Position numbers and translations under genes: made by a program
In this document: piece by piece, positions 1,187 through 26,956 of the stretch
Numbering within the stretch: the first letter of the stretch is position 1
How the letters are laid out: each line of letters begins with the position of its first letter
Notes under the pieces: model-generated
The model's input: only the letters and a program-made list of their open reading frames with translations
Databases searched by the model: none
What the model was told of the DNA's origin: nothing
Virus record (IMG/VR): IMGVR_UViG_3300037342_000044
Span: 1-31,465 of that record
Direction: 5' to 3' (one strand)
DNA from: a virus
Length of the DNA: 31,465 nucleotides

Positions 1187-2923
1187 CTAGGCTACCCCAC
1201 TGTTGGATGTGGAAGTGGAGTCGGGGCCTGCGATCTGAGCGGAGTTCGTCGGTGGGGTCTGCACGGGCTGCGTGCTGGCCGTCACCTGATTCGACGGGGC
1301 TTGGCCACTGATCAGCGCGGGGGGTGCGCCGTACGTGAGCTGTTGGGCGCTCGTGTTGGCGAGGAGGAACGTGGCCCGAACCGTGAATGTGAAGTTGTAC
1401 TCCAGCGTGTAGGGCGCGGTCTCTGTCTCACTCAGATTGAAGTCATCGAAGGAACCGACGTAGAGGATGTTGTCGTAGTAAATGTAGATCGACCCGACGA
1501 CGGATAGGTTCTTCTTCTTCGAGGACTTCGGCTCAATGAAGTCGGAGAGCCACACGCCTCCGTTGCTCTTGTAGAGGAGCCACAGGGACAGGAAGTTCTG
1601 GTAGGACGCCGAGTACTGGCGCGCGGTGCGGGTGATCCCAGGGCCCGCACCCACCCCCGTGCTGCCCGCGCTCCCGCCACCCGTTGCATCGATCGAGTAG
1701 AAGGCAGCCACCTTCCCACTCGCCTCGATCTTGTCGAGCTGCTCCCCCCATTGCTCGACGATCGGTCCGCTGCGGCTCCACTCCCCATCGGAGATGATCT
1801 TCTCCGCCGCAAGCTTGAAGCTCTGGGGGTTTACCAGCATCTTCAGTGGCGGCGTGTTCTGCATCTGCTGGATTGCCGCCAGCGTGTTGTTGATCTCGGA
1901 CTGCTGCGCCGCGAGGTACTGAAGGCCAAGGTCCGTCTGATCCAAGCTAGTGTTGGCCGTACCCGCGATGTTCGACTGGGCTGAGCTTGCGTTGGGGGAC
2001 CCGGTGCCCTGCCAGTTGTTTGTAGGGTTCGACCCATCCCCCGTGATGCTCGTCTGCGTTGGGGGATCATTCACGTGATTTGAGTGGATGTTGTACTGGT
2101 ATGTCTGATCCTCGGGGGTTTGGAACAGGTTCGTCTCGTTGGCCCGAATGGTCACGAGTTGCGGAACCGTCTGACCGTTCACCCCAGTTACGGCGGACGT
2201 GGGCCACTGCGCCGCTGCCCCGTCGTAGTCCGGGGGGTTGGCGTTGAGCGACTGAATGATCCCAGCCCCGTACTTGGAAAACCCTGAGGGGCCCGTGCTG
2301 TAGGCGTACGAAACAAGAGCGTCGTACTGGTTCTGCGTCAGGGGGCCGCTGACGTTGTTGTTGACGGTATTCTGCGCCCACTGGCTGTCCTTCGCGAGGA
2401 GCGCCTGGGCCTGGTCCTGCGTGATCCCGTTGGGGAAGGACTCCCCCGGCTGAATCACGTGCCCGTACCCGATGGTCTGGATACCGGCCTGCCCTTCGGC
2501 AGTCGTCGCCGTGTACGCATTGGGAACGAACCCCTCGTGGGCGGCAATGAATGCGACCCCGTTCGCAGACAGTGAAGTCGCACCAGCACCACTAGGACCC
2601 GGGATCTGGCTCTGGTTCGTATTGACCCCCGCGTAGGGTGGGCCAACGGGCGCAATCGTAGCCGCTCGGCTTAGCAGCCTGCCCGTGACGTTGGACGATG
2701 GGGGTAGGATCCCGATCGCCATGATCAAAGTCTGCTGGTTGCTCTTCGGCTGTACTGCCGTGATCGGGACGAACTGCCCATCCAGCTCGTCCGATTGGGT
2801 CGTAAGCGAGGAGTAGAACGTCAGCAGGTCGTAGACGGCAGGTTCGTAGTAACCCGCAGACCCCAAGACTTGTTGGTAGAAGGGACTCGTCGGGCTGGGG
2901 GTCGGTCCACCTTGCTGCGGCAT
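1187..2923 (-). CDS. Baseplate protein with internal GH24-type lysozyme domain
   Basis: 578 residues. An internal lysozyme domain covers about residues 118-265: HEG with Glu130, then TIGYGH at 150-155, the hallmarks of T4-type (GH24) muramidases, which cut peptidoglycan so that the tail tip can cross the wall. The Asp expected nine residues after the Glu (T4 D20) is Ala139 here, so activity is uncertain. Residues about 360-520 form a second domain (VNPQSF, VEQWGEQL, ending FTFTV) that is clearly related to the protein encoded just upstream. The tail from 525 is Ser/Thr/Gln-rich and disordered. ATG at 2923 follows the good ribosome site AAGGAAG and sits three bases after the upstream stop. Part of the tape measure-baseplate operon; likely a tail-tip component. 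Confidence 0.82.
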   Translation of the reverse strand: MPQQGGPTPSPTSPFYQQVLGSAGYYEPAVYDLLTFYSSLTTQSDELDGQFVPITAVQPKSNQQTLIMAIGILPPSSNVTGRLLSRAATIAPVGPPYAGVNTNQSQIPGPSGAGATSLSANGVAFIAAHEGFVPNAYTATTAEGQAGIQTIGYGHVIQPGESFPNGITQDQAQALLAKDSQWAQNTVNNNVSGPLTQNQYDALVSYAYSTGPSGFSKYGAGIIQSLNANPPDYDGAAAQWPTSAVTGVNGQTVPQLVTIRANETNLFQTPEDQTYQYNIHSNHVNDPPTQTSITGDGSNPTNNWQGTGSPNASSAQSNIAGTANTSLDQTDLGLQYLAAQQSEINNTLAAIQQMQNTPPLKMLVNPQSFKLAAEKIISDGEWSRSGPIVEQWGEQLDKIEASGKVAAFYSIDATGGGSAGSTGVGAGPGITRTARQYSASYQNFLSLWLLYKSNGGVWLSDFIEPKSSKKKNLSVVGSIYIYYDNILYVGSFDDFNLSETETAPYTLEYNFTFTVRATFLLANTSAQQLTYGAPPALISGQAPSNQVTASTQPVQTPPTNSAQIAGPDSTSTSNSGVA

Positions 2924-2926
2924 GGC

Positions 2927-3838
2927 TTACTTCCTTCCCGACGTTGTTGAAGGGGGCGCTGGCGGAAGCTGCGTCGCCAAGTTCTGTGCAGCACGGAGGG
3001 ACTGCGAAGCCCCCGTGTAGTTTCCTTGCTGGTATTTCGAGTTGGCGTTCGCCACGAGGTCCGAGATTTCCTCGGTGGCGCCGGTGGTACCCTGAAGCTG
3101 CGTGTTGAGCTGCGCGGACTGCTGGGTGAACGATGCCTGGCTCTGTAGACTGGCCAACGTCGCGGGCGTCGCCGTGGTGCCTGGGTTCGTGTTCCCCTGA
3201 AGGATGTTCGCCGCCTGGAAGGCCGGCGCGGCCCCGCGCGTGGCGGGGTTGCTGCCCAGGTTCGGGAGCTTCATCAGCTCCTCCTGCACCTTGAATGTCC
3301 AGGAGACCTTGAAGGCGAAGGGCTGATCGTCAGTCTCCTCCACGTCAAACGATCGGAAGTACCCCAGGTACGTCCCACGGTCGTACATGAGCATGATGTT
3401 GCCCTGAAGTACGATGTTGCCTTGGGGGTCGTAGAGGGAACCGTTGTTGCGGAAGAGGTCGTGGAGGTCCCTGTAACGGTCCCAGGCAATCGTCCGCTGG
3501 CGCAGGAGCGACGTAAGCCCCGTGTAGATGTTCATGAAGCTGCCGGTGGAGCCGTCAGCCGTGATCTCCGTGAGGTCATCCCCCCAGTGCTGCTCCACGA
3601 AGCCGCCGCGCGTCTGAATGCGCTCGATCTTCTTGGTGTGCTGCTCGGAGTAATTCTGGGGGTTCACGTGCATCACGAGGGCGTGGGGTAGGAGAACGCG
3701 CTTCGTGCTAAAAGGACTGGTGACCTGGAACGCCATCGGGATGAAGGAACGCCGCGACGACAGGCCGTGCGAGTAGGCCGGTTGGCCAGGTACTGTGATG
3801 ACCTGGCTGTCGGGGTTGGCCGATTGAATCCTAGGCAC
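2927..3838 (-). CDS. Baseplate structural protein (same domain as lysozyme-fused neighbour)
   Basis: 303 residues, GTG start at 3838, ten bases after the tape measure stop (TGA at 3851-3849), with GAGGG upstream. Residues 50-190 hold the conserved block: MHVNPQNY, VEQHWGDDL, a Gly-Ser-Thr-Gly turn, FRNNG, MLMYDRGTYLGYF and VSWTFKV. The same order occurs in the C-terminal half of the next gene, so the two are tandem paralogs in this domain. Residues beyond 200 are Gln/Ala/Thr-rich and probably flexible or coiled. Proteins of this kind sit directly after the tape measure in many contractile phages and build the baseplate or tube-initiation complex; that role is inferred from position and from the paralogy, not from a catalytic motif. 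Confidence 0.7.
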   Translation of the reverse strand: MPRIQSANPDSQVITVPGQPAYSHGLSSRRSFIPMAFQVTSPFSTKRVLLPHALVMHVNPQNYSEQHTKKIERIQTRGGFVEQHWGDDLTEITADGSTGSFMNIYTGLTSLLRQRTIAWDRYRDLHDLFRNNGSLYDPQGNIVLQGNIMLMYDRGTYLGYFRSFDVEETDDQPFAFKVSWTFKVQEELMKLPNLGSNPATRGAAPAFQAANILQGNTNPGTTATPATLASLQSQASFTQQSAQLNTQLQGTTGATEEISDLVANANSKYQQGNYTGASQSLRAAQNLATQLPPAPPSTTSGRK

Positions 3839-6800: not shown

Positions 6801-7409
6801 CTTTCCCTGCATGCCCTTCCCCGCGGTCCCTACGGACTTCACGAGGTGCTTCGCAAAGCCCATGAGGTCTCTGCTAGGGATCGAGCTGAGAGCCTCACCG
6901 AAGCTTTCGGCCAGGTCTTCCCCCATCTTCCCCCCGCCGTAGCCCGCGATGTCGGCTAGCTTGTTGGCCTTGCGGCTCTCCTCTTCTTCGTGGAGGTCTT
7001 TGATCGCCTTCTGCGCAGCGAGCATCGACTTCGTGTAGTCCTTGGCGGTCGCGATCCTCTCTTTGAACGCCTTCTCGAAGTCGTCCTTGTCCTTGCGGAG
7101 TTGGACCGCCTCATCCTCGGTGGCGCTGGCGAGCTTCTCCTCGACCTCGGCCAGTTGCTCCGTGAGCGTGATCATCGCCTTCGCTCCGGCGATCTCCGCT
7201 GATGATTGCTGCTTCCGCTTGGTGCTCCACTCCGTCAGAGCATCGGCGCTCTTCTTGTAGATGTTTCGCAGCCCCTTGAAGGACTTGGTGACCCGGACGG
7301 TCTCCTTGTCCATCACGGACATGGCCTTCTTCATCCCGGCCGCCATCGCCTTCGAATCGACTTGCGGCTCAATGAGAAGGACTTGCTTCTCTACGTTCGG
7401 CGGCGGCAT
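3849..7409 (-). CDS. Tail tape measure protein
   Basis: About 1186 residues. The ATG at 7409 is preferred over an adjacent GTG at 7412 because GGGAGG lies five bases upstream and the ATG overlaps the upstream stop as TGATG. Order: charged coiled-coil helices (residues 20-150), a Gly/Met-rich stretch and hydrophobic helix (about 200-260), a long helical middle, a Pro/Ala-only linker (about 940-990), and a C-terminus with ADGGVVARPAPGE and PGETIVPAGGGGG, a signature of tape measure C-termini. Tape measures set tail length and are ejected with the DNA. The length predicts a tail near 180 nm using the general 0.15 nm per residue rule. Position after the two putative chaperones and before baseplate genes is the usual order. 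Confidence 0.92.
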   Translation of the reverse strand: MPPPNVEKQVLLIEPQVDSKAMAAGMKKAMSVMDKETVRVTKSFKGLRNIYKKSADALTEWSTKRKQQSSAEIAGAKAMITLTEQLAEVEEKLASATEDEAVQLRKDKDDFEKAFKERIATAKDYTKSMLAAQKAIKDLHEEEESRKANKLADIAGYGGGKMGEDLAESFGEALSSIPSRDLMGFAKHLVKSVGTAGKGMQGKGMRMQAASLAGGGMGGGIGKVMDKLGGALSILSKMGPVIGALSGALMAVVKVLLDADAAAKEFNKQVLETTSTASFLSRNFGNADAAAQDLKDTMADMYEQATSLDNLRWGISKETHSAVIAALGAEGVSLKKTADYFKDIKDGAVEATGYVKDWGSMVQMSVGFSRAFGVSLGEITQFQGEMMTEMGQNFTQVEESFQMVADGAQDAGLEAGKFFAQIRAMSSDIGLFNLRMEDATKILGKLDKVMSPRKAQEFFQQIGGFMKGMDVMDRAKLTVQLGTKETKGVAGADLDSRLEGLSHDLSAKGIKIDKTTLKKITKDQKSLTQWMADNDDKLDSATRDQLITAMQQQGKLDRGGLFDVADSLKNLSPMGTKKMLDAMAMKFFKKPMSQLSGLQRLEFKARTNVDSDMIDNMQKFDTSLELAKSSLVKKLGSGDALTKDEVALLGKLGVDTSKSRQDQADFVANQVSAESIFDNMDKSQQDLLTGGAKTLSAAEKQGAITQSISDKLGVIMDYLMGTLSKLFEGIWDDLSSIVHVVSFGRAGSSQDQRDLVKIQAQAARDNAKGLADLAASAPSIEDYKKAVFEGVGKETGKQMIALGGQIDANNAQLTDLQQKLSAAQSDEEKKALQDQLAAASKTRDALGIQLVAIEQAITAQAKGPDKDNGAMILSLVNSIITSGVKVDSVALRRDMGQGMGFGAAMEKQGVSAKDQLKVMEQMRHDLSGQQLTKVIGDLGKIMGAPPPPAGPNESAPAGAPAAAATPSPPPPPPAPAAPASPAQAAAAPAGDKATSPADLQDSTDQQVQQGKDTQNAIDEMRLKLKQQSGGVVLNGSYLKNQYGGQIEDSVYNAASRALFEYWMYQGTNKNDALKALKAGANVRNIGALNLQKMVGGAAAGASMGQVATDAEAKKAGTAHADGGVVARPAPGELFASVKPGETIVPAGGGGGTTKVVIELKGDMLKQIMRATAHDAINDHTRAKKLR

Positions 7410-8713
7410 CACTTCCTCCCGAAGGGCGTACCGCCCTGCTTAGGGGGCGCGATAGGAACAGCAGCGGAAGGGTCCCGATCGGACGTCCCCACGGAGAAAC
7501 CAACCTCGTTGTTGGTGATCCCCCAGCGATCGAGGAACTGCATCGACTTCTCGTCCTCGACGATCGCCGCGGGGCGCACCATCCGCTGAGCGTTCTGCTG
7601 AGCTTCGAGCTGCTTACGCCGCTGAATGCGCTCCTGGACCTGCTGAGCCGTGAGGCCCGTGAAGTCGGTCCCACCCACGATGTTCTGGCCCTGGAACTCC
7701 TTCTCGTGACGCTCCGACAGCTCGCGCACCTGCTCCTGGCGCCCTTGGATGTTCACCTTGATCCGGCGCTCGTGCTCCTCGACAACCTTGTCGTGCCAGT
7801 CCTTCTCGCCCTTGAGGTCACTCTCCAGTTGGTGAGCGAGATCCTCGACGGAGTGCGCGGTGGTCAGCACGGCTCCGTTGAGCTGCCGCACTTTCTCAGT
7901 GGGCTTCTCTCCCAAGAGCACCCGCCGCAAGATGCTGTCCTTACGCGCGAAGCGATCTTCCTTCTCCTTGCGGCGACGCTCGTTGTCCTGGTCGTAAATC
8001 TTCTGGATACCCTTCCCGGCGAAACATGAACCCACGAACTTCGCGTTCTCCCACTCGCGCTCCAGCTCGTCGTTCCTGTCATCCAGGTAGTTGAGTGCAC
8101 GCCACGTGAGCTGCGCCCAGTTCATACCCAGAAGATCCGTTCCAGGGATGCCCGTCACAACCGGCTGGCAGAAGTCGAGCCCCCGCAACTGCATCCAGCG
8201 GTAGCGCGAGTAGCTCTCCATCGCGTAGCACTCGGTGAGGAGCAAGGCGTTGTTTGCGCGCCGGTTGATCTCACTCATGTGCCGGATGATGAGCTGCTTG
8301 GCCTTGGGCTCCATGTCACCAAAGACTTTGGTGACTCCAGGTAGAAGACGCTGACGATCGAGCAGAATGTTCTGCCCGTCGACCATAAGGACGTTGTAGG
8401 CAAGAAGAGTGTCCCACAACTTGTGCGTGGCCCCCTTCTCGAAGACCCCCATCAACCGGAGAAGGTTGTACTCGTGGTGATTGATGCTCTTGAAGGCAAA
8501 GACGACATCGCCGATGGTCGCGAGCTGCGTGATGAACCCCTGGTAGAGCATCGGCTCCACGTCCCGATAAACCTCCGGGTTGACCTCCGGATCTTTGGGG
8601 ACTTCGATCTTGAGGTTCTTGAGCCCACCCCCGTCACTCTCCTGCTGAAGGGCGAGCTGCTCCTTCTCCCACTGTTCGCGGGCTGGAGTCTTGTGTCGGG
8701 GTGCGGCGCTCAT
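7409..8713 (-). CDS. Conserved tail protein, probable tail assembly protein before the tape measure
   Basis: 434 residues, ATG at 8713, ten bases after the upstream stop and overlapping the tape measure start by one base. The N-terminal 250 residues look globular and helical (FITQLATIGDVVFAFKS, ESYSRYRWMQLRG, NWAQLTWRALNYLDD). From about 240 on it is a highly charged helix (ERRRKEKEDRFARK and an EEHERRIK segment) likely to form coiled coil. I do not recognise a named family. Its place between tail tube and tape measure is where tail assembly chaperones lie in other tailed phages, and together with the 419-residue neighbour it may fill that role; a virion structural role is the alternative. 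Confidence 0.6.
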   Translation of the reverse strand: MSAAPRHKTPAREQWEKEQLALQQESDGGGLKNLKIEVPKDPEVNPEVYRDVEPMLYQGFITQLATIGDVVFAFKSINHHEYNLLRLMGVFEKGATHKLWDTLLAYNVLMVDGQNILLDRQRLLPGVTKVFGDMEPKAKQLIIRHMSEINRRANNALLLTECYAMESYSRYRWMQLRGLDFCQPVVTGIPGTDLLGMNWAQLTWRALNYLDDRNDELEREWENAKFVGSCFAGKGIQKIYDQDNERRRKEKEDRFARKDSILRRVLLGEKPTEKVRQLNGAVLTTAHSVEDLAHQLESDLKGEKDWHDKVVEEHERRIKVNIQGRQEQVRELSERHEKEFQGQNIVGGTDFTGLTAQQVQERIQRRKQLEAQQNAQRMVRPAAIVEDEKSMQFLDRWGITNNEVGFSVGTSDRDPSAAVPIAPPKQGGTPFGRK

Positions 8714-8723
8714 CGTTGGCTAC

Positions 8724-9983
8724 TCAGCGGGGGGGCCTGAACCGTGGGTTGATGCCTGCCCTCGGGGGCTGCTCGACGATCTTGTTGAACTCCTGGAGGT
8801 TGACCGCCTCACGTCCCTTCTGGGCGAGCACGGGAACGTCCTCCGGTCTCGCAGTCCGGAGATGCGGGGCGTTCGGTTGCGTAGTCGCACCCTGAGGGGT
8901 CTGGCCTGGCGTCACATGGGGCTGCCCAGGGGCGACATGGCGCCGGGCCATGTTGGGATCCCCCGGGGGCGGCATCGGGGGTTCCAGACCGATCGGCCCG
9001 TCCTCCAGCTTTCCAATCTTCTGCGACCGCTGGGCAGCGCGTAGGATCGTCGCCGAGTCCAGGGGCGGCGGTTGCACGGGCGGTGGCTGCTCCTGATGCT
9101 GGACCTGAGGCTGCTGGTACTGGACCGGCTGCTGCACGGGTTGGTTCCGCGCGATGGTCGGTTCCTGTGAGGGGTGTGTGATCGTGACGGGCTCCTGGTT
9201 CAGAGGTTGCCGTGACGCCATGATCTCCCGGACCGAGACCTGCCTGACCCCCGTATCGGGCTGCCCCTGCCCCTGCTGCCCCTGCGCTTGCTGCTCCTGG
9301 GTCTCCTGTGCTTGTTGCGCCGCTGCCTGCTCGCGCGCGAGCTGGTCGGTGGCCTGCATGGCCTTCTTGATCTCTTCGGCCGTGGAGATGCGCATCAGGC
9401 CCGCCTCTTCGAGGATGCTCTCGATGAGGGGCTCCGGGACGCCCGACATGGCCTCCTGGATCGTGGCGACGGTCCTGCGGAAGGTCTCCTCCGGGGTCTC
9501 CTCCGGGAGGACGAACTTGATCCCCTCCTTCGCCTTGTCCTCGGCGAGCTTCAGAACGTCGCAGAACTTCCGCCAGGCGACGAGCATCGCCTCCTTGGAC
9601 CACCCGCAGAGGATGTACTGCCGAAGGTAGGCGTGGAGTTCGAGCTTGACCTTCTTGAGGACAGGGGCACCGCCCGAATCGACGAGGGGTTCCTTCGTCT
9701 TAGGGTCCTTCGACTGCTCCTCGACCTCGACGAAGTCCACGGTGCGCAGGTCTGTGCCGTTGATCTCGCAGATCGACCGAGAAATGTGGCTCTGCTGAAA
9801 GGCGTAGACGTGGTCTACCCCCTCCAGATCCTCGTTCTCCGAGAAGATGGCCTTGAAGTGATCAGGCCGGAGGTTGCGCATGACCAGGGAGGTGTCCCCG
9901 ATCTGAAACGGCTCCTCTACATATCCAACGTCCCTCGCCTTCGAGAGGGACTCCTCGATCTTGCGTGCCGATATGGTTCCCAT
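8724..9983 (-). CDS. Probable tail assembly chaperone-like protein with Gln/Pro-rich C-terminus
   Basis: 419 residues, ATG at 9983 with GGAGA eight bases upstream. The N-terminal 200 residues are a compact mixed domain (FQIGDTSLVMRNLRPDHF, AYLRQYILCGWSK) and resemble proteins that follow the tube gene in myoviruses. Around 225-260 the sequence becomes Gln/Ala/Gly-rich, then Pro/Gln-rich to the end (QPPPVQPPP), indicating disorder. A run of seven C just before the stop (8735-8729 on the minus strand) looks like a slippery site, but both alternative frames stop within a few codons, so no fused product with the next gene is predicted. Chaperone function is inferred from gene order between tail tube and tape measure. 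Confidence 0.55.
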   Translation of the reverse strand: MGTISARKIEESLSKARDVGYVEEPFQIGDTSLVMRNLRPDHFKAIFSENEDLEGVDHVYAFQQSHISRSICEINGTDLRTVDFVEVEEQSKDPKTKEPLVDSGGAPVLKKVKLELHAYLRQYILCGWSKEAMLVAWRKFCDVLKLAEDKAKEGIKFVLPEETPEETFRRTVATIQEAMSGVPEPLIESILEEAGLMRISTAEEIKKAMQATDQLAREQAAAQQAQETQEQQAQGQQGQGQPDTGVRQVSVREIMASRQPLNQEPVTITHPSQEPTIARNQPVQQPVQYQQPQVQHQEQPPPVQPPPLDSATILRAAQRSQKIGKLEDGPIGLEPPMPPPGDPNMARRHVAPGQPHVTPGQTPQGATTQPNAPHLRTARPEDVPVLAQKGREAVNLQEFNKIVEQPPRAGINPRFRPPR

Positions 9984-10164: not shown

Positions 10165-10881
10165 TTAGACCGGGACGATGAGGTTGCTGTTCGCGGCGAA
10201 GAGAAGCGAGTAGCCAGCCCCAGCGGCGCCGTTGGCGGACGTCGGTGCGAGGCCGGTGTCGATGAACTCGCCGTACTGCGAGATGCCGTCGATGATGTCG
10301 CTCACGGTGACCGAGCTGTTCTCGGCGACCATCGCGGCGTCCGACGTGAACGATGCGCTCCAGGTGTTGAACCAGCACCCCTCGTAGAACGTGAGGAGCG
10401 CCAGCGGCGTGACGATGGGGTTGTCAGCCGACGTGGGGCCCGTCGTGACGGTTGCCGTGACGGCAACGCCGTTGGGGTCCTGAAGAACCGCGATCTCCGA
10501 GAAGACCAGCTCTTGCTTGATGTCGAACGGCCAGCGGTGGTGGCGGAGCGACCTCACGAGGCCGTCCGTGCCACCCTTGTAACCCACCGTCTGGAACAGA
10601 TTCGCCGTGTACAGCAAAGTCCTGTTGAGGGTGAGCGTCATGGGCTCGGTGACTGACGGAACCAACTCGGCGACCTGGTCTCCGAAGCCGACGCCACGGA
10701 TCGGATCGATCGTGCGCGACTCGTCGAACCCGAACTCCGAAATGACGCCGATCTGCTGGAACGACTGCGCGTTCGTGGCGTAGCCGTACACCTTGTTCTT
10801 CTGAGATACAGCGGCCCTCGTATTGGGCGCCGTCCCCATCCGGTAGATGTAGTTGGCTGTCGATACGTTGCTAGTGGCCAT
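10165..10881 (-). CDS. Tail tube protein
   Basis: 238 residues, ATG at 10881 after AAGGAG. The protein starts with a short disordered arm, then IGVISEFGFDESRTIDPIRG, a pattern seen in tube proteins of large myophages (strand, loop with Arg, then a Gly-rich turn), followed by LTLNRTLLY and more beta strands, no Cys cluster or membrane segment, and ends in a hydrophobic strand (LIVPV). Tube proteins stack as hexameric rings inside the sheath and form the DNA channel. It is followed by a long intergenic gap, as is common after a highly expressed tube gene, then by chaperone-like genes and the tape measure. Unusually, five small genes separate it from the sheath gene. Confidence 0.75.
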   Translation of the reverse strand: MATSNVSTANYIYRMGTAPNTRAAVSQKNKVYGYATNAQSFQQIGVISEFGFDESRTIDPIRGVGFGDQVAELVPSVTEPMTLTLNRTLLYTANLFQTVGYKGGTDGLVRSLRHHRWPFDIKQELVFSEIAVLQDPNGVAVTATVTTGPTSADNPIVTPLALLTFYEGCWFNTWSASFTSDAAMVAENSSVTVSDIIDGISQYGEFIDTGLAPTSANGAAGAGYSLLFAANSNLIVPV

Positions 10882-10902
10882 GTTTTAGCCTGCTCCTTCT
10901 CC

Positions 10903-11445: not shown

Positions 11446-11491
11446 GACCTTGACCTTGTGGAAGGGTTCGATCTCACGCCGTACAAGAGGA

Positions 11492-11821
11492 CTACCGGGG
11501 CGGAGGCCGCCGGTCGTAGTCGTACGGTCTCTGGGGTGTGATCGACGTCCATCGCGCTCGGTGGGGCTTCAGCAGCTCCCACATGAGGTCCGGGTCGACC
11601 ATCAGCATCGACGTCCCGTTTTTGATGAACTCGTCGAGCGTCTTGCGGGCCGCGTACGAGCCCCCAGTGCCGAGTTCGGTCACGAACTTCAGCATCGAAA
11701 TGGGGCCGAGCATGTGCTTGCAGCCGTCGGGCGTCTGCACCCAATCACTCAGCCCATCAGTACCGATGGTGACGAGCTGTCGGCTTTGGCTCCTCTGGGG
11801 CATGCCACTAGGGCTCCCCAC
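11492..11821 (-). CDS. Hypothetical small tail-operon protein
   Basis: 109 residues from a GTG at 11821; an ATG six codons later (11803) is an alternative, with GGGGAG ten bases before it. The centre (LVTIGTDGLSDWVQTPDGCKHMLGP) reads as short beta strands, then a helix-rich segment (KTLDEFIKNGTSMLMVDPDLMWELLK). The C-terminus is Arg/Pro-rich. No family is recognised. Its codon use matches the neighbours and it is in line with the operon, which supports it being real. Confidence 0.55.
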   Translation of the reverse strand: MGSPSGMPQRSQSRQLVTIGTDGLSDWVQTPDGCKHMLGPISMLKFVTELGTGGSYAARKTLDEFIKNGTSMLMVDPDLMWELLKPHRARWTSITPQRPYDYDRRPPPR

Positions 11822-11842
11822 GAAAGGACTAGCGACGAACCC

Positions 11843-12718: not shown

Positions 12719-13288
12719 CTACCCGATGATCGGGGGACAAGGTGGGGGGCCTCTTCCTGGGGGGCACCCCGGAGCGCATTGCGGTTGCGGCGGCTGAGGG
12801 ACGTTGGGGAAGATCCGGATCTGGCGCGGCCGGAAGGCCCCGTTGTTGGGCATGATGAGCTGCAAGTCTGGAGGCAAAGAGCGCTGATCGGCCTTGCAGA
12901 CACGGGCCGCGATCTCCTGCCACATGAGCCGGGGGACCGGAAGCTCGTCGGCCTCCCACTCTTCCACCGTCACCAGGGGCACGTTGAGAAGGGCGGCGAC
13001 ATCGCTCTGCGAGAGCCCGATGGCTGCGCGCTCGAAGGCGAAGATGTCCCCCGAGATGAGCCCCCACTGGCAAAGCGTTGAGGCTGCCCGGAGGTTCGCG
13101 AGCTGAATCGCTGCCGGCTGGAAGATCGGGCCCCAGCTCTGAAGAAGCCCCGCCATCGCGGCCTGAAACGTGATCCCCGTACTCCCGACCTGGATAACGT
13201 AGTCGAAGAGCCCGACCTTCCCGATTGCCTGGGGCGAGTCTGCCTCAAGGACAACGATCGGGAAGTCGAAGTCGGACTCGCTGGGCAT
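12719..13288 (-). CDS. Protein with helix-turn-helix (XRE-like) domain
   Basis: 189 residues, ATG at 13288, three bases past the upstream stop. Residues 82-125 read FERAAIGLSQSDVAALLNV then TVEEWEADELPVP: a five-helix XRE/Cro-like DNA-binding domain with the typical 'GLSQxDVA' second helix and 'TVxxWE' recognition part. The N-terminal 80 residues are not recognised. The C-terminus is Pro/Cys/Gly-rich (PQCAPGCPPGRGPPPCPP), with three Cys that could bind metal. Such domains occur in repressors, but also in phage morphogenesis proteins, where they serve protein contacts. Position between sheath and tube genes leaves both a late regulator and a structural role open. Confidence 0.65.
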   Translation of the reverse strand: MPSESDFDFPIVVLEADSPQAIGKVGLFDYVIQVGSTGITFQAAMAGLLQSWGPIFQPAAIQLANLRAASTLCQWGLISGDIFAFERAAIGLSQSDVAALLNVPLVTVEEWEADELPVPRLMWQEIAARVCKADQRSLPPDLQLIMPNNGAFRPRQIRIFPNVPQPPQPQCAPGCPPGRGPPPCPPIIG

Positions 13289-18113: not shown

Positions 18114-18557
18114 TCAGCCGCTTTTTCCGGACTCCCGGCTTGCTCTGACGGTCTCGATGGCGTGTTTCGCGAGCTTTCGCCTCGCATCACGGCCTACGGG
18201 CGTCATCGGCTCGTAGCCGATGCCCTCCTTTTCCGTGTGACGGATGAGCGCATGGGTGCCTCCTTGCTCCCGCGCCTGGGCCTTCACCTCGTCCCGAGCA
18301 CGCATCACAGCCCATCGTTCCTCGGCGCTGCGCCCCACAACCTTGTCCGCGGTGGGGTAGTCGTGGTCGTGAACACCTGAGTTGGCTATCGGAGCGCCCT
18401 CTGCCTTCTGGAACTGAAAGGCAAAACCCTCCCCATCAAGGACGCGAGGTGCTTGCTCCTTGCAGGAGGGGCACTCGAACCCGAGGTAGTTGTTCATCTT
18501 GAGGGTGCGCGTGAAGCGCACGTTGCACGGAGGGCACTCGAAGACGTACTGAGGCAT
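18114..18557 (-). CDS. FmdB-type zinc-ribbon protein
   Basis: 147 residues, ATG at 18557 with GGAG seven bases upstream. It opens MPQYVFECPPCNVRFTRTL and has a second pair at FECPSC: Cys8, Cys11, Cys29, Cys32, a CX2C-X17-CX2C zinc ribbon as in the FmdB family of putative regulators. The remainder is charged and helical (VHDHDYPTADKVVGRSAEERW, then a basic C-terminal helix). Similar small proteins occur in large phages without an assigned role. Location immediately before the sheath leader makes a late transcription or RNA-binding role attractive, but a structural zinc protein is equally possible. Confidence 0.7.
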   Translation of the reverse strand: MPQYVFECPPCNVRFTRTLKMNNYLGFECPSCKEQAPRVLDGEGFAFQFQKAEGAPIANSGVHDHDYPTADKVVGRSAEERWAVMRARDEVKAQAREQGGTHALIRHTEKEGIGYEPMTPVGRDARRKLAKHAIETVRASRESGKSG

Positions 18558-18587: not shown

Positions 18588-19793
18588 TCATATGATCCTC
18601 TCGTAGTCGTTGTTGCGGCTCGTAATGATGGGCACCGTCTGGAAGAAGAGGTTGTTAGCTGGCCCCGGCTGCACGGGGGAAATCCCAGCGACAACTCCTG
18701 CAAGACCCCCAGGACTCCCGTTGGGGCCCCCACCGCCACGCGGACCGAAGCGGCTGATCGTGAGAGGCAGGGGCAGGTGGATCTCCCAATCCGATTGGAT
18801 CTCGATGTTGAGAGACGCGACGTAGTAGTTCAGGTTGGCTGCCTCGTCGTAGGGGACCTCCGACTCGCCCCCCATCGAGATGTTGGTGATCTCGATCCCC
18901 TCGATCGAAAGGATGGGCCTCTTCTCGCCCCAGAGGTACATCGTGACGAGGTCAGCGATCTCCTCCATCTGGTTCGTGTCCTGGGACATGACGTCGACAT
19001 CGAATGTCGTGTCAAACCTGCCGCCGTAAGCGTTCGCCGCTTCAACGCGATCTGGGTAGACGACGACAGCCACCTTGTCGCCGACCTTGGCCCTCTTACC
19101 GAAGGCGAGGACGACCCCGTGGAGCGTTGTGAAGTCGGCTGTGTTCCAAACGAACTTGAAGGGTCCCCTCGTGGGGATGGGGTAGCGGTAGTCCGCCGAG
19201 ACGTACGTGTCGCCGCCGAACGTGGAGAGAAAGCGGATCTCCCCGTTCGTGTAGTTGAGTGTGTAGTCAACCCCCTCAACGAGCAGGTAGTTGTGGTTCT
19301 GCCATAGGCGCACGGTTCCCTTGACGGGCGGGTGCCGAAGCCCCGCCTCGCGCTCGATGCCGGTGAGGAAGTGGAGGACGGGCTCGTCAGTGATCGTGAG
19401 GAGAGGGTCGATGCAGAAGACCCCCTCATCCTGCGCGTGCTCAGGCACCTTCAGGATCTCGATGTAGTAGATGCCGGCAGGCGTCGGCATCTTCCCTTCG
19501 TTCTCACGGATGCAGTTCAGATCCTCACGGACCCACTCCAACGGGTAGACAGGGTGCTTGAGGTACGCGAGCATGACGTAGCTCTGTACTGTCCCCAAGA
19601 AGTTATCGGCCGAGAGCGAGACCTTGTTCGCCGTCGAGTTCTTGATGACGATACCGAACTGGGGACGCTCATCGAAGGCGAACTTGTTCTGGATGAAGGG
19701 CACGACCTTCTCGTACACGGGGTGCCGCGAGAAGCTGTCTTGCATCTCCAGGATCAAGCGCCTCTTGAGGGCCTGCGTGAGGTAGTAGTACAA
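18588..19793 (-). CDS. Conserved virion protein upstream of sheath (probable neck or tail completion)
   Basis: 401 residues if the TTG at 19793 is the start, giving YYYLTQALKRRLILEMQDSF at the N-terminus. The frame stays open to an ATG at 19916, but that extension lies inside the 125-residue gene and is Arg/Ser-rich with shadow-like composition, so it is rejected; an ATG at about 19748 is the other choice. The body is mixed alpha/beta (NKFAFDERPQFGIVIKNST, GVDYTLNYTNGEIRF, MYLWGEKRPILSIEGIEI), with a Gly/Pro-rich tail (GPRGGGGPNGSPGG). The pattern is familiar from proteins encoded next to the sheath in large myophages; a connector, neck or tail-terminator role is inferred from position. Confidence 0.68.
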   Translation of the reverse strand: MYYYLTQALKRRLILEMQDSFSRHPVYEKVVPFIQNKFAFDERPQFGIVIKNSTANKVSLSADNFLGTVQSYVMLAYLKHPVYPLEWVREDLNCIRENEGKMPTPAGIYYIEILKVPEHAQDEGVFCIDPLLTITDEPVLHFLTGIEREAGLRHPPVKGTVRLWQNHNYLLVEGVDYTLNYTNGEIRFLSTFGGDTYVSADYRYPIPTRGPFKFVWNTADFTTLHGVVLAFGKRAKVGDKVAVVVYPDRVEAANAYGGRFDTTFDVDVMSQDTNQMEEIADLVTMYLWGEKRPILSIEGIEITNISMGGESEVPYDEAANLNYYVASLNIEIQSDWEIHLPLPLTISRFGPRGGGGPNGSPGGLAGVVAGISPVQPGPANNLFFQTVPIITSRNNDYERII

Positions 19794-19794
19794 C

Positions 19795-20172
19795 TCAGGC
19801 CCCCGGCGTGAAGGAGTCCTTGAGCCTCGATGCGATCTGCGCTGCGAGGACGGACGGCTTGTTGCCCGGGTGACCGCCAAAATTGGCGCGGCCCCCATAG
19901 GGCAACGAGAAGTCACTGTACGCGCCGTGCGGCTCGATCTTGAGGTGTGCGATCATCGGGAGGCGACCCTCCCCAGCAAGCATCTCGAACGTCAGCTCGA
20001 AGTAGCCGTCTGAGAGGGGCTTGGCGCCGTGGAACCACCAACGGTTGCCCGCCTCACGATTGAGGTCTTCCATGAGATGGGTTCCGAACGCACGCGCGAA
20101 CCCCAACTGGAAGTCCGAGATGGAGATGTCGCCAGGATGATCAGCCGTCTTCGTTCGCGCGTAGTCGTACAT
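19795..20172 (-). CDS. Hypothetical small protein between actin-like and neck genes
   Basis: 125 residues, ATG at 20172 with GGAG five bases upstream; eight bases separate it from the actin-like stop. One stretch (NREAGNRWWFHGAKPLSDGY) leads into a beta-rich part (FELTFEMLAGEGRLPMIAHL, FSLPYGGRANFGGHPGNKP) and a C-terminal helix. No Cys, no membrane segment, not recognised. The next gene begins directly after its stop (TGAGTTG), so the two are probably translationally coupled and may act together. Confidence 0.6.
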   Translation of the reverse strand: MYDYARTKTADHPGDISISDFQLGFARAFGTHLMEDLNREAGNRWWFHGAKPLSDGYFELTFEMLAGEGRLPMIAHLKIEPHGAYSDFSLPYGGRANFGGHPGNKPSVLAAQIASRLKDSFTPGA

Positions 20173-20180
20173 GATCGCTC

Positions 20181-21194
20181 CTAGGTGCTGTCCTCCTCGG
20201 ACGCGAGGACAAGAAGACCCTCAGCCACGGCCGTCATCGGATCCTTCGCCGGGCGGATGTCGCTGATCTGGATCGGGAAGCCGCGCTTTTGCATGGCCTC
20301 GAACTCCTCGCGGAAGACGTCGAGAAAGCCACCCGCTTTCGACGTGCCCCCGGAGACCACGAAGGGAATCGGCTCGGGCAGATCGAGCGACGTCTGAACC
20401 TTCCGGAACTGGATGGCGATGTTCTCCAGGCAGTACTTGATGAGGCTCCTGATGTAGAGCGCGATGGCCTCGGCGTCACGGTTGCCCTTCTCGGGGTTCG
20501 CGATGTTGACGCCCTTCTCCTTGATGGCGCACATGCGAGCGTTCGTGGACCCCATCGCCTTGGCGGCGTGGCTGTCGATCCAGTCCCCCCCACGGGCGAC
20601 AGCGAACTCCAGTCCGCACACCGTCTGGTAGGCCAGCGCGACGTTGCACATGCCCGACCCGAAGGAGACGGAGAGCCCGGAGAAGTTTTCCTTCGAGCAC
20701 TGCGAGTAGATGATGGCCATCGCCTCGTTGGCGGGGTGTGCCGTGTACCCGTGCTCGTTGACGATCTTCTTGAAGACCTCGGTGTGGTAGATGACGTCCT
20801 GATCGAGATCGTCGATCGGGGCCGCGGGCACGCTGTAGTAGCAATGCTCCCCCGCCTTCACGGGCTCCCCCAAGACGTGCTTGATGAGGAGGCTGAGGAT
20901 CTGCTGGGCCTCGATCTCGCCCGCGGAGATGACGCCGCGCGAGAGGGGACGCCGAAGCTCCCGCTTGAAGAGGTTCACCATGTTGAGGGCCGAGTCCCCG
21001 ATCACGATGAGGCGCCCGTCCTTCTCCACGTAGTCAACCTTCGAGAGCCGCAGCGTCTTCTTGGCCTCCAGGTCGAGGTCGATGAAGGCGTCCCGCATGC
21101 GTACGGTCTGAATCTTCCCCTCAGCGTTCATGCGGGCGCTGACGATGTTCATGGTCCCGATGTCGAGACCCACGGCGGGCTTGAAGTCACTCAT
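20181..21194 (-). CDS. Actin-like ATPase (MreB/ParM/FtsA superfamily)
   Basis: 337 residues, ATG at 21194 after GAGGA. All parts of the actin/Hsp70 ATPase fold can be placed: phosphate-1 loop VGLDIGTMNIVSA (8-20), connect-1 helix AHPANEAMAIIYS (152-164), phosphate-2 loop GLSVSFGSGMCNVAL (173-187), a GGDWID segment (202-207) and the adenosine motif FVVSGGTSKAGGF (278-290). Length fits the MreB/ParM class. In phosphate-2 the usual Asp (DxGGGT) is Ser177 and the later Asp is Asn184, so nucleotide hydrolysis may be slow or changed. Bacterial relatives polymerise into filaments that move DNA or shape cells. A structural-operon location next to Dps-like and neck genes suggests action late in infection, for example in virion positioning or assembly; that is inference. 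Confidence 0.87.
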   Translation of the reverse strand: MSDFKPAVGLDIGTMNIVSARMNAEGKIQTVRMRDAFIDLDLEAKKTLRLSKVDYVEKDGRLIVIGDSALNMVNLFKRELRRPLSRGVISAGEIEAQQILSLLIKHVLGEPVKAGEHCYYSVPAAPIDDLDQDVIYHTEVFKKIVNEHGYTAHPANEAMAIIYSQCSKENFSGLSVSFGSGMCNVALAYQTVCGLEFAVARGGDWIDSHAAKAMGSTNARMCAIKEKGVNIANPEKGNRDAEAIALYIRSLIKYCLENIAIQFRKVQTSLDLPEPIPFVVSGGTSKAGGFLDVFREEFEAMQKRGFPIQISDIRPAKDPMTAVAEGLLVLASEEDST

Positions 21195-21233: not shown

Positions 21234-21968
21234 TCATCTGGATCGGTCGTAGCTGACCTTGGTCTGGACTCGTTGCCGGAGCAGGTAGACGAAAGACTCG
21301 TGCTCGTCGGCGATCCCCTGAAGGAGGTTGTCCGTGCCCTTCGACAGGACCCCCTGCGACTGGAGCGCGCTGTACGCCATCCCGATGAAGGACAGCACGT
21401 AGACCTCCGTGAGGAAGCTCACGAGCGCCTGCTGGTCGGCCTCAGGGTCGGCCTGGATGTCCCCCGCGAAGAACTTCACGAGGACCGCCATCTGGTTCGA
21501 CTGGATGACAGGGTGCACGAGGACCCTGTGTCCCGAGCCCACCGCGCGCTCAGCCAGTTGGTCGATCATCCCGAGCGACTGCTCGTAGAGGTGATCGTAC
21601 AGCTTGTGGTCCGAGTAGAAGGTGCTCCCCCGCGTCTGCCAGTGGTTCGACTGGTGAACGAACGCCGCCGCTCGAAGAACGACGAGGAGCGCCGCAAGCT
21701 CCGCAAGGACGATCTTCTGGTAGTCTCCCACCAGGGTCAGGAAGATTTGCGCCGCAGGGCTCGCGTTGGCGACCTTGGTGACGTACTCCCGGATGGCGGC
21801 TTTCGTCGCGCGCCCAAGCTTGACCTTCGCCTCCGGGAGGTACGGAGGCCCCATCGTCATATGGTCGTACGTCGAGGGATCGTGCCAGAGGGCGTAGATC
21901 GACTCGGCATGGAGGCCCGTGTATGGGTCCGTGACAGGGAGTTCCTCAGCCGAGCGCTCGTTGGCCAT
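21234..21968 (-). CDS. Dps/ferritin-like protein
   Basis: 244 residues, ATG at 21968. Residues 105-146 read HQSNHWQTRG, then an Asp-His pair, then IDQLAERAVGSG, the Dps signature. The four ferroxidase ligands of Dps are all present at canonical spacing: His109, His121 (+12), Asp136 (+15), Glu140 (+4). The last helix (ADEHESFVYLLRQR, 220-233) resembles the final Dps helix. A N-terminal extension of about 75 residues and a longer middle section make it bigger than usual Dps (about 160-180). Dps proteins form 12-subunit shells that oxidise and store iron and bind DNA, protecting it from peroxide. Here the gene lies in the neck/tail operon directly upstream of the actin-like gene. Virion incorporation or genome protection is inference. 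Confidence 0.8.
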   Translation of the reverse strand: MANERSAEELPVTDPYTGLHAESIYALWHDPSTYDHMTMGPPYLPEAKVKLGRATKAAIREYVTKVANASPAAQIFLTLVGDYQKIVLAELAALLVVLRAAAFVHQSNHWQTRGSTFYSDHKLYDHLYEQSLGMIDQLAERAVGSGHRVLVHPVIQSNQMAVLVKFFAGDIQADPEADQQALVSFLTEVYVLSFIGMAYSALQSQGVLSKGTDNLLQGIADEHESFVYLLRQRVQTKVSYDRSR

Positions 21969-21994: not shown

Positions 21995-22576
21995 TTAACC
22001 GTTGCCGCCTTTACGCATCTGCCGAAGCTTCGCGGTCGCATCGGAAACTGAACCCGAATCCGCCTCTTGGGACACGCGGTCGATACGCACCTCAGCGTCC
22101 TTGGGCGCAATCTCACCAGGAATGAACTGGGGTGCGCTGCCGTCCGCCACGTCGCTACATTGAACCGGCGTTTGTTGACCGGAACCCATCCCGACCATCC
22201 CGAAAGGGGCCTTCACGCTCCCGATCGCCTTCATGATCGCATCGAACTGGTCGCGCTGCGCCAGGGCCGCCCCCAAGGATGCCCGGAGCTGCGTGACCTC
22301 TTCTTCGAGTAGCTTGTTGCGCGCCTCCAAGTGACGGTTGCGCTCTTGAAGCAGGTCGTCTCGCACATGCCCAGCGGGCGCCGTATGTACGGGCGGGGGC
22401 AGATCGGGGAGCTTGAAAACACACTTCTGGCCGATGGCCTTGTAGAGATCCCGCGATCGGGCCGCCTTGTCGGCCGGAATGACTACCTCGCGCCCGTGGG
22501 GGACGTCCATAGCGATGTCTTCGATGACGTGCGTGGGCGTCACCAAGCCGAAGACTCGGACGTCTCCCGTGCTCAC
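21995..22576 (-). CDS. Hypothetical protein with beta N-terminus and coiled coil
   Basis: 193 residues, GTG start at 22576 overlapping the upstream stop as GTGA, with GGGAGG six bases upstream. Residues 5-60 (VFGLVTPTHVIEDIAMDVPH, then VVIPADKAARSRDLYKAI) match a pattern seen in small proteins of many tailed phages: a strand pair followed by an 'IPxxKAxxSxDL' helix. Residues 72-118 are a coiled coil (ERNRHLEARNKLLEEEVTQL). The rest is Gly/Ser/Gln-rich and flexible. The function is unknown; a minor virion component fits the location. Confidence 0.6.
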   Translation of the reverse strand: MSTGDVRVFGLVTPTHVIEDIAMDVPHGREVVIPADKAARSRDLYKAIGQKCVFKLPDLPPPVHTAPAGHVRDDLLQERNRHLEARNKLLEEEVTQLRASLGAALAQRDQFDAIMKAIGSVKAPFGMVGMGSGQQTPVQCSDVADGSAPQFIPGEIAPKDAEVRIDRVSQEADSGSVSDATAKLRQMRKGGNG

Positions 22577-23121
22577 CGGCGCCTCCCGATCTGCTTCATC
22601 CGACCACCGGCCATGCTCGAACGGAAGTTCTGCATGACGTCCTTCAGGAGGTACTCACGGATGTGCTTGCGCATCTCCTCCTTGGCCTTCTCGACGTAGT
22701 TCTGGGGCGTACGTCCAGGGTGCCACCAGCCAGGCTTCGCCCCGAGGCTGCTCTGGACCATCGACCTAGGTGTCGCGTTGCGGAAAATGAGCCGACCGTC
22801 ATCGAGCACGATCGGGATGGGGCGTCGCGCCTTGAGGAGCCAGCGCATCTGCACAGGATGCTGGCCCTCAACCAAGGGGCGGTAGGCGGGGTGCTTCGCA
22901 ACGACCTGCAAGCTCGAAGGCTTCAGACGGATCGACACCGCCCGCGCGAGCGCAGCCTTGGCCTGGGGGGAAAAGGTCGTCTGAAGCAAGTTGGCCTTGA
23001 GGCGCCGTAGAAGGTGCTGCTTGCTGCGCTGAAGTACCTTGTCGACGGGGATGCGAGCCCCTGCCCGCCCGGGAGGCAGGAGAGGCTTCATGTAGACGCG
23101 GACGCCGATGTACTCCTTCAT
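22573..23121 (-). CDS. Hypothetical basic protein, possible neck / tail completion protein
   Basis: 182 residues, ATG at 23121 overlapping the upstream stop by one base. It is strongly basic (many Arg/Lys: SKQHLLRRLKANLLQ, IGRRR at the end). The C-terminal part has WWHPGRTPQNYVEKAKEEM followed by a long helix, reminiscent of the 'HPG...F...A' end of HK97 gp10-like tail completion proteins, while the middle (RRPIPIVLDDGRLIFRNATP) is beta. The resemblance is weak. Its place upstream of sheath and between connector-like genes fits a head-tail joining component. Confidence 0.5.
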   Translation of the reverse strand: MKEYIGVRVYMKPLLPPGRAGARIPVDKVLQRSKQHLLRRLKANLLQTTFSPQAKAALARAVSIRLKPSSLQVVAKHPAYRPLVEGQHPVQMRWLLKARRPIPIVLDDGRLIFRNATPRSMVQSSLGAKPGWWHPGRTPQNYVEKAKEEMRKHIREYLLKDVMQNFRSSMAGGRMKQIGRRR

Positions 23122-24476
23122 CAGTACTCGATGTTCTCCCAGACTGGCGTACGACCTCGGAGCTGCTGCTCGACCGGGACATCCGGCTTGTTCGTGACCC
23201 TGGACTCCGCCTCCAGCTCAGGACCCGTGGGCTTGAGCTGGATGGCCACAAACTTCACGGGGTTCGTCACCGGAACGCGGCAGCGGATGTCCTTCTCGTC
23301 GATGTGATTGATCGTGAAGTGCTGCTGCATGACGTTGCCACGGTTGCTCGGCATGCGCACACCCCCAAGAGAGTAGCGATCCCCGTTGAGCTTCACGAGG
23401 AAGTCCCGCATCGACAGGAGAGGCGAGGGGCCCGTGAAGACCTCGTAGGTCTGCTCCACGGTGCGACCGTACTCCGTCTGGTTGATCTTGTAGTCGGCAT
23501 CGGCGGGCGAGATGATGCAGTCGTAGGGTCCGTCGTAGCCTCCCACGATGCCGGTCCCGAAGCAGGTCGGGTCATCGTTGATCGGCTGCTTGTGGTACCC
23601 GTCGGGGATGCAGGGGCATGGAAGGCCCACGTTCTTGCGAAGGAAGACCTTCACGCGCTCGCCCCCCTGCTCCAGGATCCAGCGGTTGCGGCGCACGGCC
23701 TCGCGCCACATATAGTCGAGCTTCTCGATCTCCATCGTGCTCGTCGCCGTGGCGTGCTCGATGGGGGTCTCCACCAAGTCTTGCGGCTGACAGAGCGACA
23801 AGTCCTTGTCGATGGGGATGCCGACGCACGTTGCCCGGTAGTGCATGCGCTGGCCGAGGTCCGTCCGAATGAGCTGCCGGGTGTAGCGGTACGTACAGAT
23901 GACGGTGCTCTGCGGCTGAGGGACGACCGAGGGGTCCCACGCCTGCTTCTCCACGTTCACGTAGGTGAAAGGATCGATCTCGACCTCACCCGTGTTCCCC
24001 CAGACGTTGAGAACCTTCGCTTCCTGGCCGTCGATGAAGACGCGGATGTCGTCCCCTGTGTCGGCCGGGATCTGCTGCGAGCCCTCCTTCACGATGGGGA
24101 AGTTGCGCGTCTTGAAGACGTAACGCGGTCCCCGATCCCCAACCGCCGAACAGACCCCGAACAGCTCGAACTGCCCGGTCACGTTCTCGTGAACGAGTTC
24201 GTTCTCCGTGCGGTCCCGCCAGTAGCGAGCGCCCACGAGCAAGTCGGTCACCCTCTCGAAGGGTCCGTACTCACTGTCAGGGCTGCGATAGAGGTTGACC
24301 CCCAAGATGTTGAAGCGGCTGTTCACCGCCAGCACCGTGGGATCGTCCCAAGTGAGATCGATGACACCGCGTTCGTACCCGCTCGTCATGAACAGGTTGA
24401 GCGGGGGAGCTGGCCAAGGAGCCTTGGTCAGCTCCAGCTCGCCGGGCGTGCGATCCCTTTGACTAGCGTACGGCAC
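23121..24476 (-). CDS. Conserved virion structural protein with N-terminal FN3-like domain and Cys cluster
   Basis: 451 residues, GTG start at 24476 with GGGAGGG six bases upstream. Residues 22-110 (VIDLTWDDPTVLAVNSRFNI, GVNLYRSPDSEYGPFERV) read as a fibronectin III-like domain. The middle has a beta segment with DDIRVFIDGQEAKVLNVWG. Residues 260-325 (NRWILEQGGERVKVFLRKN, then Cys287, Cys289, Cys305, GTGIVGGYDGPYDC) form a conserved Cys-containing block that I know from structural proteins of large myophages, probably a metal-binding fold. The C-terminus is charged. A hairpin repeat lies 19 bases before the start codon. Neck or connector role is inferred. Confidence 0.65.
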   Translation of the reverse strand: MPYASQRDRTPGELELTKAPWPAPPLNLFMTSGYERGVIDLTWDDPTVLAVNSRFNILGVNLYRSPDSEYGPFERVTDLLVGARYWRDRTENELVHENVTGQFELFGVCSAVGDRGPRYVFKTRNFPIVKEGSQQIPADTGDDIRVFIDGQEAKVLNVWGNTGEVEIDPFTYVNVEKQAWDPSVVPQPQSTVICTYRYTRQLIRTDLGQRMHYRATCVGIPIDKDLSLCQPQDLVETPIEHATATSTMEIEKLDYMWREAVRRNRWILEQGGERVKVFLRKNVGLPCPCIPDGYHKQPINDDPTCFGTGIVGGYDGPYDCIISPADADYKINQTEYGRTVEQTYEVFTGPSPLLSMRDFLVKLNGDRYSLGGVRMPSNRGNVMQQHFTINHIDEKDIRCRVPVTNPVKFVAIQLKPTGPELEAESRVTNKPDVPVEQQLRGRTPVWENIEY

Positions 24477-25796: not shown

Positions 25797-26054
25797 TCAA
25801 CCCATGCCCCAACCACGAAGAATCGCGGGCATGTCCTCTTTGGGTGGGGGCATCGCCATCGGCTTGCCTTGGCAAGTGGGCGCGCGGTGGAACCAGTTCG
25901 TCCCGTCGTAGTACAGGCCCTTCTCGTGTATTTCCTGCTGGCAGTGAGGGCAGACGAGGAACTTGCGCGGCACCATCTCGGTCTTCTCGACGACCTGAGG
26001 AAGATCCTGGGCCCCCAGGAACCTCGAAGCGACCCTGCTCGCGAGCTTGTCCAT
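25797..26054 (-). CDS. Small zinc-binding protein with shared N-terminal helix
   Basis: 85 residues. ATG at 26054 overlaps the upstream stop (TGATG); the longer frame to 26201 runs inside the neighbour and is rejected. It opens MDKLASRVASRFLGA, the same N-terminal helix as the proteins at 27911 and 28135. Then Cys35-Cys38 (LVCPHCQQEIHEKG), YYDGTNWFHRAPTC with His56 and Cys61: a CX2C...HX4C single zinc-binding unit. The C-terminus is Met/Pro-rich. The shared helix suggests a common docking or targeting function; the zinc module suggests compact folding or nucleic-acid contact. Confidence 0.72.
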   Translation of the reverse strand: MDKLASRVASRFLGAQDLPQVVEKTEMVPRKFLVCPHCQQEIHEKGLYYDGTNWFHRAPTCQGKPMAMPPPKEDMPAILRGWGMG

Positions 26055-26956
26055 CAGAACCCCATGAACTTGCGGGGTGAGAGTACACCGCGCCCGGCGT
26101 AGGGACCGAAGGCCGACCTGATGCCGGTGCCGTACTTCGGCTGCTGGAGACCCGCGATGTAGTTGACCGTGGCCTTGGCCTTCTCGATCTGCTTGTCCCA
26201 CATCTCAACGGTCCCGTTGTAGGCTCCCTCGTACTTGCTGGCCTTGTCGAGCGCGAGGCTCACGCCACCGATGCTGTAGTCGAACTCGTCGGCGATCCAG
26301 TTGTTTCGGAGCGCATGAAGGGCCTTCGCCATCGCGCCGGTGAGAAGCACCGTCTCCCACTCTTGCCGCCCTTGCATCATCGCTTCGACGCTCGCAAAGG
26401 GGGTACGCGGGGGGTACGCAATGATGTCGTTGAGCGCGAGCCGGATGAACTCGTACAGCTCTGTGCTCTCCCAGATGAACCCGAAGACCTTGCTGTACTG
26501 CTGGATCGTGCGCTCGTGTGTGGGCGGCCTGAAGTGGTAGTTGCGGTCCGGGTTATTGTCCCGGAGGAGGACACGCAGGCTATCCCCTAGCTGGTGCATA
26601 ACGGAGCTGTACCGCTCCTCGGGACGGTCCTGGAGGCCCGTGGACTTGTCCACGACCTCAAACTCCTGCACGACCTGCTGGACCTGGCCCCCAATGATCT
26701 CCTGGAACGTCCACTTCACCCGGTAAGGGCCAAGGTTCGCGTCCAGCGGGATGAGGTTGCTAGCGTAGTACTCACCGATGGCGGGGTTCTCCGGACGCCG
26801 CTGCGGAGGACCAACGAGCACGCCCTCCCCCGTCGTGTAGTCGAAGAAGGCGTACGACATGATCGCCGCGTTGACGGGGACATCGTTCGTGTTGTGGAGG
26901 TATAGGTGCAGGTCGCGCCGACCGAGCTGCTGCCCTCTGAAGTACGCGACGCCCAT
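26054..26956 (-). CDS. Structural protein with N-terminal Ig-like domain
   Basis: 300 residues, ATG at 26956, one base past the upstream stop (TGACATG). Residues 13-103 are a beta domain (RRDLHLYLHNTND, VGPPQRRPENPAIGEYYA, YRVKWTF, FEVVD) related to the C-terminal domain of the Cys/His-rich protein at 28145. Residues 130-230 are helical, and the C-terminus (FDYSIGGVSLALDKASKYEG, then KYGTGIRSAFGPYAGRG) is a pattern known to me from connector- or neck-type proteins of large myophages. No catalytic residues. Structural function is inferred. Confidence 0.62.
   Translation of the reverse strand: MGVAYFRGQQLGRRDLHLYLHNTNDVPVNAAIMSYAFFDYTTGEGVLVGPPQRRPENPAIGEYYASNLIPLDANLGPYRVKWTFQEIIGGQVQQVVQEFEVVDKSTGLQDRPEERYSSVMHQLGDSLRVLLRDNNPDRNYHFRPPTHERTIQQYSKVFGFIWESTELYEFIRLALNDIIAYPPRTPFASVEAMMQGRQEWETVLLTGAMAKALHALRNNWIADEFDYSIGGVSLALDKASKYEGAYNGTVEMWDKQIEKAKATVNYIAGLQQPKYGTGIRSAFGPYAGRGVLSPRKFMGF

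Follow-up and report, generated by a model that had tools for sequence, protein, structure and literature searches.

A volactin-type actin-family gene is present in a phage, inside the operon that encodes the neck and tail. It was found in IMG/VR record IMGVR_UViG_3300037342_000044, whose 31,465 nucleotides are referred to here as the window. The initial annotation had proposed its place in a neck/tail operon for this single locus, and the arrangement is kept across dozens of phages, members of a mostly uncultured but widespread group of giant phages. The known cytoskeletal elements of phages are, in the main, the tubulin PhuZ and plasmid-like actins, AlpC among them. The gene belongs to an established actin family, in a viral context that seems not to have been reported: no phage volactin was found in the open-access papers and small share of preprints searched, the main volactin paper (PMC10869688) makes no mention of phage, and the huge-phage paper makes none of actin. 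If the interpretation developed below is correct, a tail-linked volactin in hundreds of viral contigs would put the actin fold to a different use, at virion assembly instead of DNA segregation, and would show that the volactin family extends well past the haloarchaea.

The minus-strand ORF that begins with the start codon at position 21194 (the initial annotation gave no strand) is a real gene, and its 337-residue product matches the Pfam Volactin profile (PF25216) over its full length (residues 8-331, E 2.1e-70, 238 bits against a cut-off of 35). An AlphaFold2 model, computed from an alignment of 61 window and locus sequences, reached a pLDDT of 93.9 and a pTM of 0.91, and its top PDB matches in Foldseek were MamK, MreB/Mbl and BeeR, with E-values down to 4e-15. 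The model lies closer to the polymerised MamK filament (TM 0.74-0.76) than to a non-polymerising MamK mutant (0.55-0.62), a predicted conformation that is not in itself evidence of polymerisation. A profile search of the PDB also recovered MamK (E 2e-11), while a direct phmmer search of the PDB gave no match; PHROGs contains no family matching the protein, and the NCBIfam MamK model NF040964 scored 16 bits against a cut-off of 400, a weak hint at most. The prediction of an actin/Hsp70-type ATPase core made from the sequence is thus borne out by the Volactin profile, the model and the invariant residues of the nucleotide site, and the structural comparison that the initial annotation had called for narrows it to an actin fold rather than merely an ASKHA one.

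All four nucleotide motifs lie where they had been placed beforehand, namely phosphate-1 (D11/G13/T14), connect-1 (E157), phosphate-2 (S177-x-G179-x-G181) and the adenosine motif (G282-G283-T284), the sole difference being that the phosphate-2 Asp is Ser177. Together with the fold, these motifs place the protein in the actin superfamily (actin/MreB/MamK). Among 174 aligned relatives, Asp11, Gly13, Thr14, Glu157, Gly179, Gly181, Asn184, Lys225, Gly282 and Gly283 are invariant wherever they are covered, T284 is occasionally Ser, and the nucleotide motifs are otherwise kept in essentially all. Ser177 replaces the MamK-type Asp in every relative with residues at this position, cellular members included, and the phosphate-2 signature Ser-x-Gly-x-Gly-x-x-Asn does not vary in the viral, haloarchaeal, Omnitrophota and Magnetococcales proteins that cover the site. 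Since the cellular volactins have it too, Ser177 is a mark of the whole volactin family and not of phage decay. The substitution could weaken ATP hydrolysis, although the cellular proteins share it.

Within the window, all genes assigned to the module lie on the minus strand (Table 1). The order runs from a head-tail connector-like gene through neck-region genes, the ferritin-like gene, actin, a non-conserved ORF, the tail terminator and a zinc ribbon to the sheath, probable tube, genes at the chaperone position, probable tape measure, and baseplate and lysozyme. Gaps of 39 bp on the upstream side and 8 bp on the downstream side separate the actin gene from its neighbours, and its co-transcription with the tail genes is inferred from the shared strand and this spacing; a scan for promoters and terminators found nothing above chance. 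The known sheath profile covers residues 1071-1429 of the sheath only, so that most of this protein may consist of inserted domains. Between sheath and tube, a helix-turn-helix protein is encoded at 12719-13288 (Pfam HTH_31, above cut-off). The probable tape measure has no PHROG match.

Table 1. Tail-module features of the window
Feature	Position	Strand	Evidence
Head-tail connector-like	26054..26956	-	HMM E 4e-46 to Tunturi_5 gp319 'head-tail connector'
Conserved neck-region protein	23121..24476	-	HMM matches to Tunturi_5 gp322 'minor tail protein' (E 1.3e-56) and to a protein encoded ahead of the sheath in phage G (E 1.4e-23)
Conserved neck-region gene, likely head-tail connector	22573..23121	-	51 loci
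Conserved gene, upstream part of module	21995..22576	-	Present in 55 loci
Weakly ferritin/Dps-like, directly upstream of actin	21234..21968	-	PHROG 3636 E 5e-10; Pfam Ferritin E 6e-4, below cut-off; 51 loci, confined to the closer part of the clade
Phage volactin, actin-fold ATPase, 337 aa	20181..21194	-	PF25216, AlphaFold2, Foldseek, invariant nucleotide site
125-aa ORF 8 bp past the actin gene	19795..20172	-	Related loci contain no homologue
Tail terminator, TTG start at 19793	18588..19793	-	tblastn match to the annotated 'tail terminator' of Tunturi_5; Foldseek matches to phage neck chains (812, E217)
Zinc-ribbon protein	18114..18557	-	Pfam Zn_ribbon_8 E 1.9e-5, below cut-off; conserved in 70 loci
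Tail sheath, 1434 aa	13624..17928	-	PHROG 2839 E 3.9e-23; annotated sheath homologues
Probable tail tube	10165..10881	-	gp329 of Tunturi_5 ('virion structural protein'), HMM E 7.8e-69; proteins of phage G encoded between its sheath and tail chaperones
Two genes at the tail-chaperone position, judged by gene order	7409..9983	-	Weak match by tblastn to the tail chaperone region of phage G
Probable tape measure, 1187 aa	3849..7412	-	Position and length only; homologue in LR745208
Baseplate-region protein and lysozyme-containing hub	1187..3838	-	PHROG 1011 E 1.2e-5; PHROG 7 endolysin E 6.6e-33; PHROG 13211 hub/tail lysozyme E 4e-6

These surroundings bear on the possibility of a ParM- or AlpC-like protein that segregates or transports phage DNA. 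An actin-fold ATPase could serve this purpose, and AlpC is a prophage actin with a role involving DNA (PMC4446434). Nevertheless, the neighbours are virion genes, only scattered two-copy matches and no centromere-like repeat array were found near the gene, no conserved adaptor gene adjoins it (the 125-aa ORF is not conserved; the operon does encode a helix-turn-helix protein, at 12719-13288, far downstream), and Pfam assigns the protein to Volactin, no plasmid-segregation actin family being reported. A segregation role was rejected as highly improbable on the grounds of the repeat scan and the neighbouring genes, and the comparison with AlpC in the initial annotation is not supported by family, neighbourhood or repeats.

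Relatives of the protein are encoded on at least 483 viral contigs of IMG/VR, the longest of 618,736 bases, and most of the large records tested gave terminase matches. The phage collection contributed two matching records only, both from uncultured huge phages (485 and 595 kb), and no isolate; MT835502 (H5) was discarded as a relative because its match was too weak (21%, E 2e-4). Gene order was compared in loci chosen by actin similarity, from which near-copies had been removed by hand, and those with at least 5 kb downstream were considered testable. In each of these (67/67) the conserved gene that follows is the terminator, with the sheath no more than 4.5 kb away. On the other side, 58 of the 59 loci compared have a homologue of the neck-region protein encoded at 23121..24476 within 4.5 kb upstream of the actin gene. 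As these loci had been picked by actin similarity, a second search was started from the terminator; the actin gene was present in all 77 testable loci, three further ones being too short, and the two locus sets have many contigs in common. Comparisons with the window protein gave dN/dS values of about 0.12-0.26, and one close pair gave 0.006, which indicates that purifying selection on the actin gene is strong. The actin is also more conserved in identity than both sheath and terminator in every locus compared (63/63), and this, together with the low dN/dS, is as expected for a self-assembling protein. Altogether, the arrangement suggests an actin-like protein of the phages' own, produced while virions are being built.

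A natural comparison that makes the question testable is offered by relatives that have the same module and lack the gene. Tunturi_5, a jumbo phage isolate of Acidobacteriota, has a contractile tail (PMC11924767), and its host makes this phylum a speculative host of the actin-bearing phages. Both Tunturi_5 and phage G share connector, neck, terminator, sheath and tube genes with the actin-bearing clade, and volactin is absent from both entire genomes; in metagenomic relatives of Tunturi_5, no volactin was found beside these tail-module genes. The occurrence of the same module without volactin in sister phages implies that this tail type does not need it, and the protein would accordingly not be a basic tail-assembly factor, being at best accessory to tail assembly. 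In the tree of sheath proteins, phages with the actin gene fall together on one side of a single branch (99), so that one change is enough, while the terminator tree requires three, without firm support. Judging from these trees, volactin is a stable addition in one clade or was lost outside that clade.

The same comparison weighs on a second explanation, in which a non-polymerising ATPase or chaperone, Hsp70- or PilM-like, would help to fold or load the very large sheath or terminator proteins. The gene is always adjacent to terminator and sheath, the sheath is unusually large, and the ATPase site is intact except for Ser177, all of which would fit such a helper. However, Tunturi_5 and relatives with a 1204-aa sheath manage without an actin gene, the protein consists of the actin core alone, with no substrate-binding domain, and it is matched best by MamK in the filament form, all of which makes this explanation unlikely.

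A second, distant group of phages (L013-L020, 34-36% identity) also keeps volactin within a tail module, here after the probable tube gene and ahead of the tape measure. In L015 and L016 the gene lies three genes ahead of a long tape-measure ORF; the ORF of L015 matches PHROG 4211 (E 5e-28). A profile comparison of the tail modules of both lineages identified the actin as the only protein in common. This position is relevant to a further explanation, that volactin is a virion component, i.e., an actin-fold protein in the neck or tail whose ATP binding acts as a switch during assembly or ejection. The Hsp70h protein of closteroviruses is, in a comparable way, part of their tail. Hsp70h is among the best viral fold matches of the phage protein, although the superfamily fold is common to all, and the fixed place between neck genes and terminator, the location after the probable tube and before the tape measure in the distant lineage and an identity higher than that of the sheath would all be in keeping with a structural role. 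On the other hand, the closest relatives are cytoplasmic filament proteins, the position varies by lineage (before the terminator or after the tube), and the sister phages have the same neck and tail genes without volactin. On balance, a place in the virion seems rather unlikely, if somewhat less so than a chaperone-like function.

The actin tree separates the distant phage group, the jumbo-phage clade, haloarchaea, Omnitrophota (L033-L043) and Magnetococcales (L045-L060), the LR756511 copy being of unsure placement on a long branch. The Magnetococcales clade adjoins the jumbo-phage clade. Each of the 11 Omnitrophota loci contains a pair of closely spaced volactin genes, of which the second has the longer ORF; in L036, for example (9986-12433), this second volactin has an N-terminal extension, and the pair is located near ParA-like, Hpt and response-regulator genes. 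Mad28, considered as a possible identity of the Omnitrophota relatives, lacks conservation in Pseudomonadota (PMC12713370) and hence probably does not explain those in Magnetococcales. The existence of bacterial relatives could also be taken to mean that the phage protein imitates or poisons an actin of the host, be it MreB or a volactin, and thereby reshapes the infected cell; this is far-fetched, given an identity of 16-20% to host-type MreB in the fold alignment and the fact that a virion operon would be an unusual location for a host-takeover gene.

As its most likely, though tentative, function, the protein would polymerise late in infection into a filament organising the assembly of tails or virions. 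An ancestor of the jumbo-phage clade would have acquired volactin, or sister lineages would have lost it, and it would since have been passed down together with the tail module. The protein is probably expressed late, alongside the tail proteins, would bind ATP and probably polymerises, most likely into intracellular filaments like those of MamK or Haloferax volactin, which would serve to place or scaffold the assembly of tails and virions within a large infected cell. This explanation is favoured by the full-length Volactin profile, the proximity of the model to polymerised MamK, the invariant catalytic Glu157 and phosphate and adenosine loops, and the dynamic filaments that the archaeal relative forms in cells (PMC10869688). 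It is also favoured by the retention of the gene between neck genes and terminator/sheath, which the terminator-based search also recovers, and by the remote lineage, where volactin stays in the tail module without other detectable tail homology. In addition, tails and heads of jumbo phages assemble in organised 'bouquets' whose positioning is independent of PhuZ (PMC9067925), which also favours an assembly-organising filament. Against this explanation stand the invariant Ser177, the lack of a conserved filament adaptor among the genes found and the contractile tail that Tunturi_5 builds without volactin. A broader scenario, in which a large jumbo-phage clade builds or positions its virions with a tail-linked actin cytoskeleton and a second, unrelated tail type acquired volactin independently, is possible but doubtful; were it true, actin-guided tail assembly would be a recurring phage strategy.

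Among known systems, the Haloferax volcanii volactin (VolA, HVO_2015) is the nearest, as it shares the full-length PF25216 match and the phosphate-2 Ser, haloarchaeal volactins being 37-41% identical to the phage protein. Within the family, dynamic filaments in cells are known for H. volcanii only, and the archaeal protein acts in cell shape, while the phage protein is viral, lies in a tail operon and forms a separate clade. The magnetosome actin MamK is the best solved fold match, its filament form included, but is about 20% identical and has the phosphate-2 Asp. AlpC (prophage CGP3) and ParM represent the actin fold in a phage or plasmid, yet belong to a different family, and phage volactin is embedded in virion genes, with no centromere or adaptor found. 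The jumbo-phage protein gp506 of Bacillus phage G has a predicted actin-like fold, with 14% identity and a place outside the volactin family. Finally, PhuZ of phiKZ-like phages, a tubulin of unrelated fold, resembles volactin in its proposed role in organising jumbo-phage virion production. No tubulin was detected in 18 large volactin-bearing records by a search that does find PhuZ in phiKZ, which favours an actin organiser in these phages, and volactin may be the actin counterpart to the organising tubulin of other jumbo phages.
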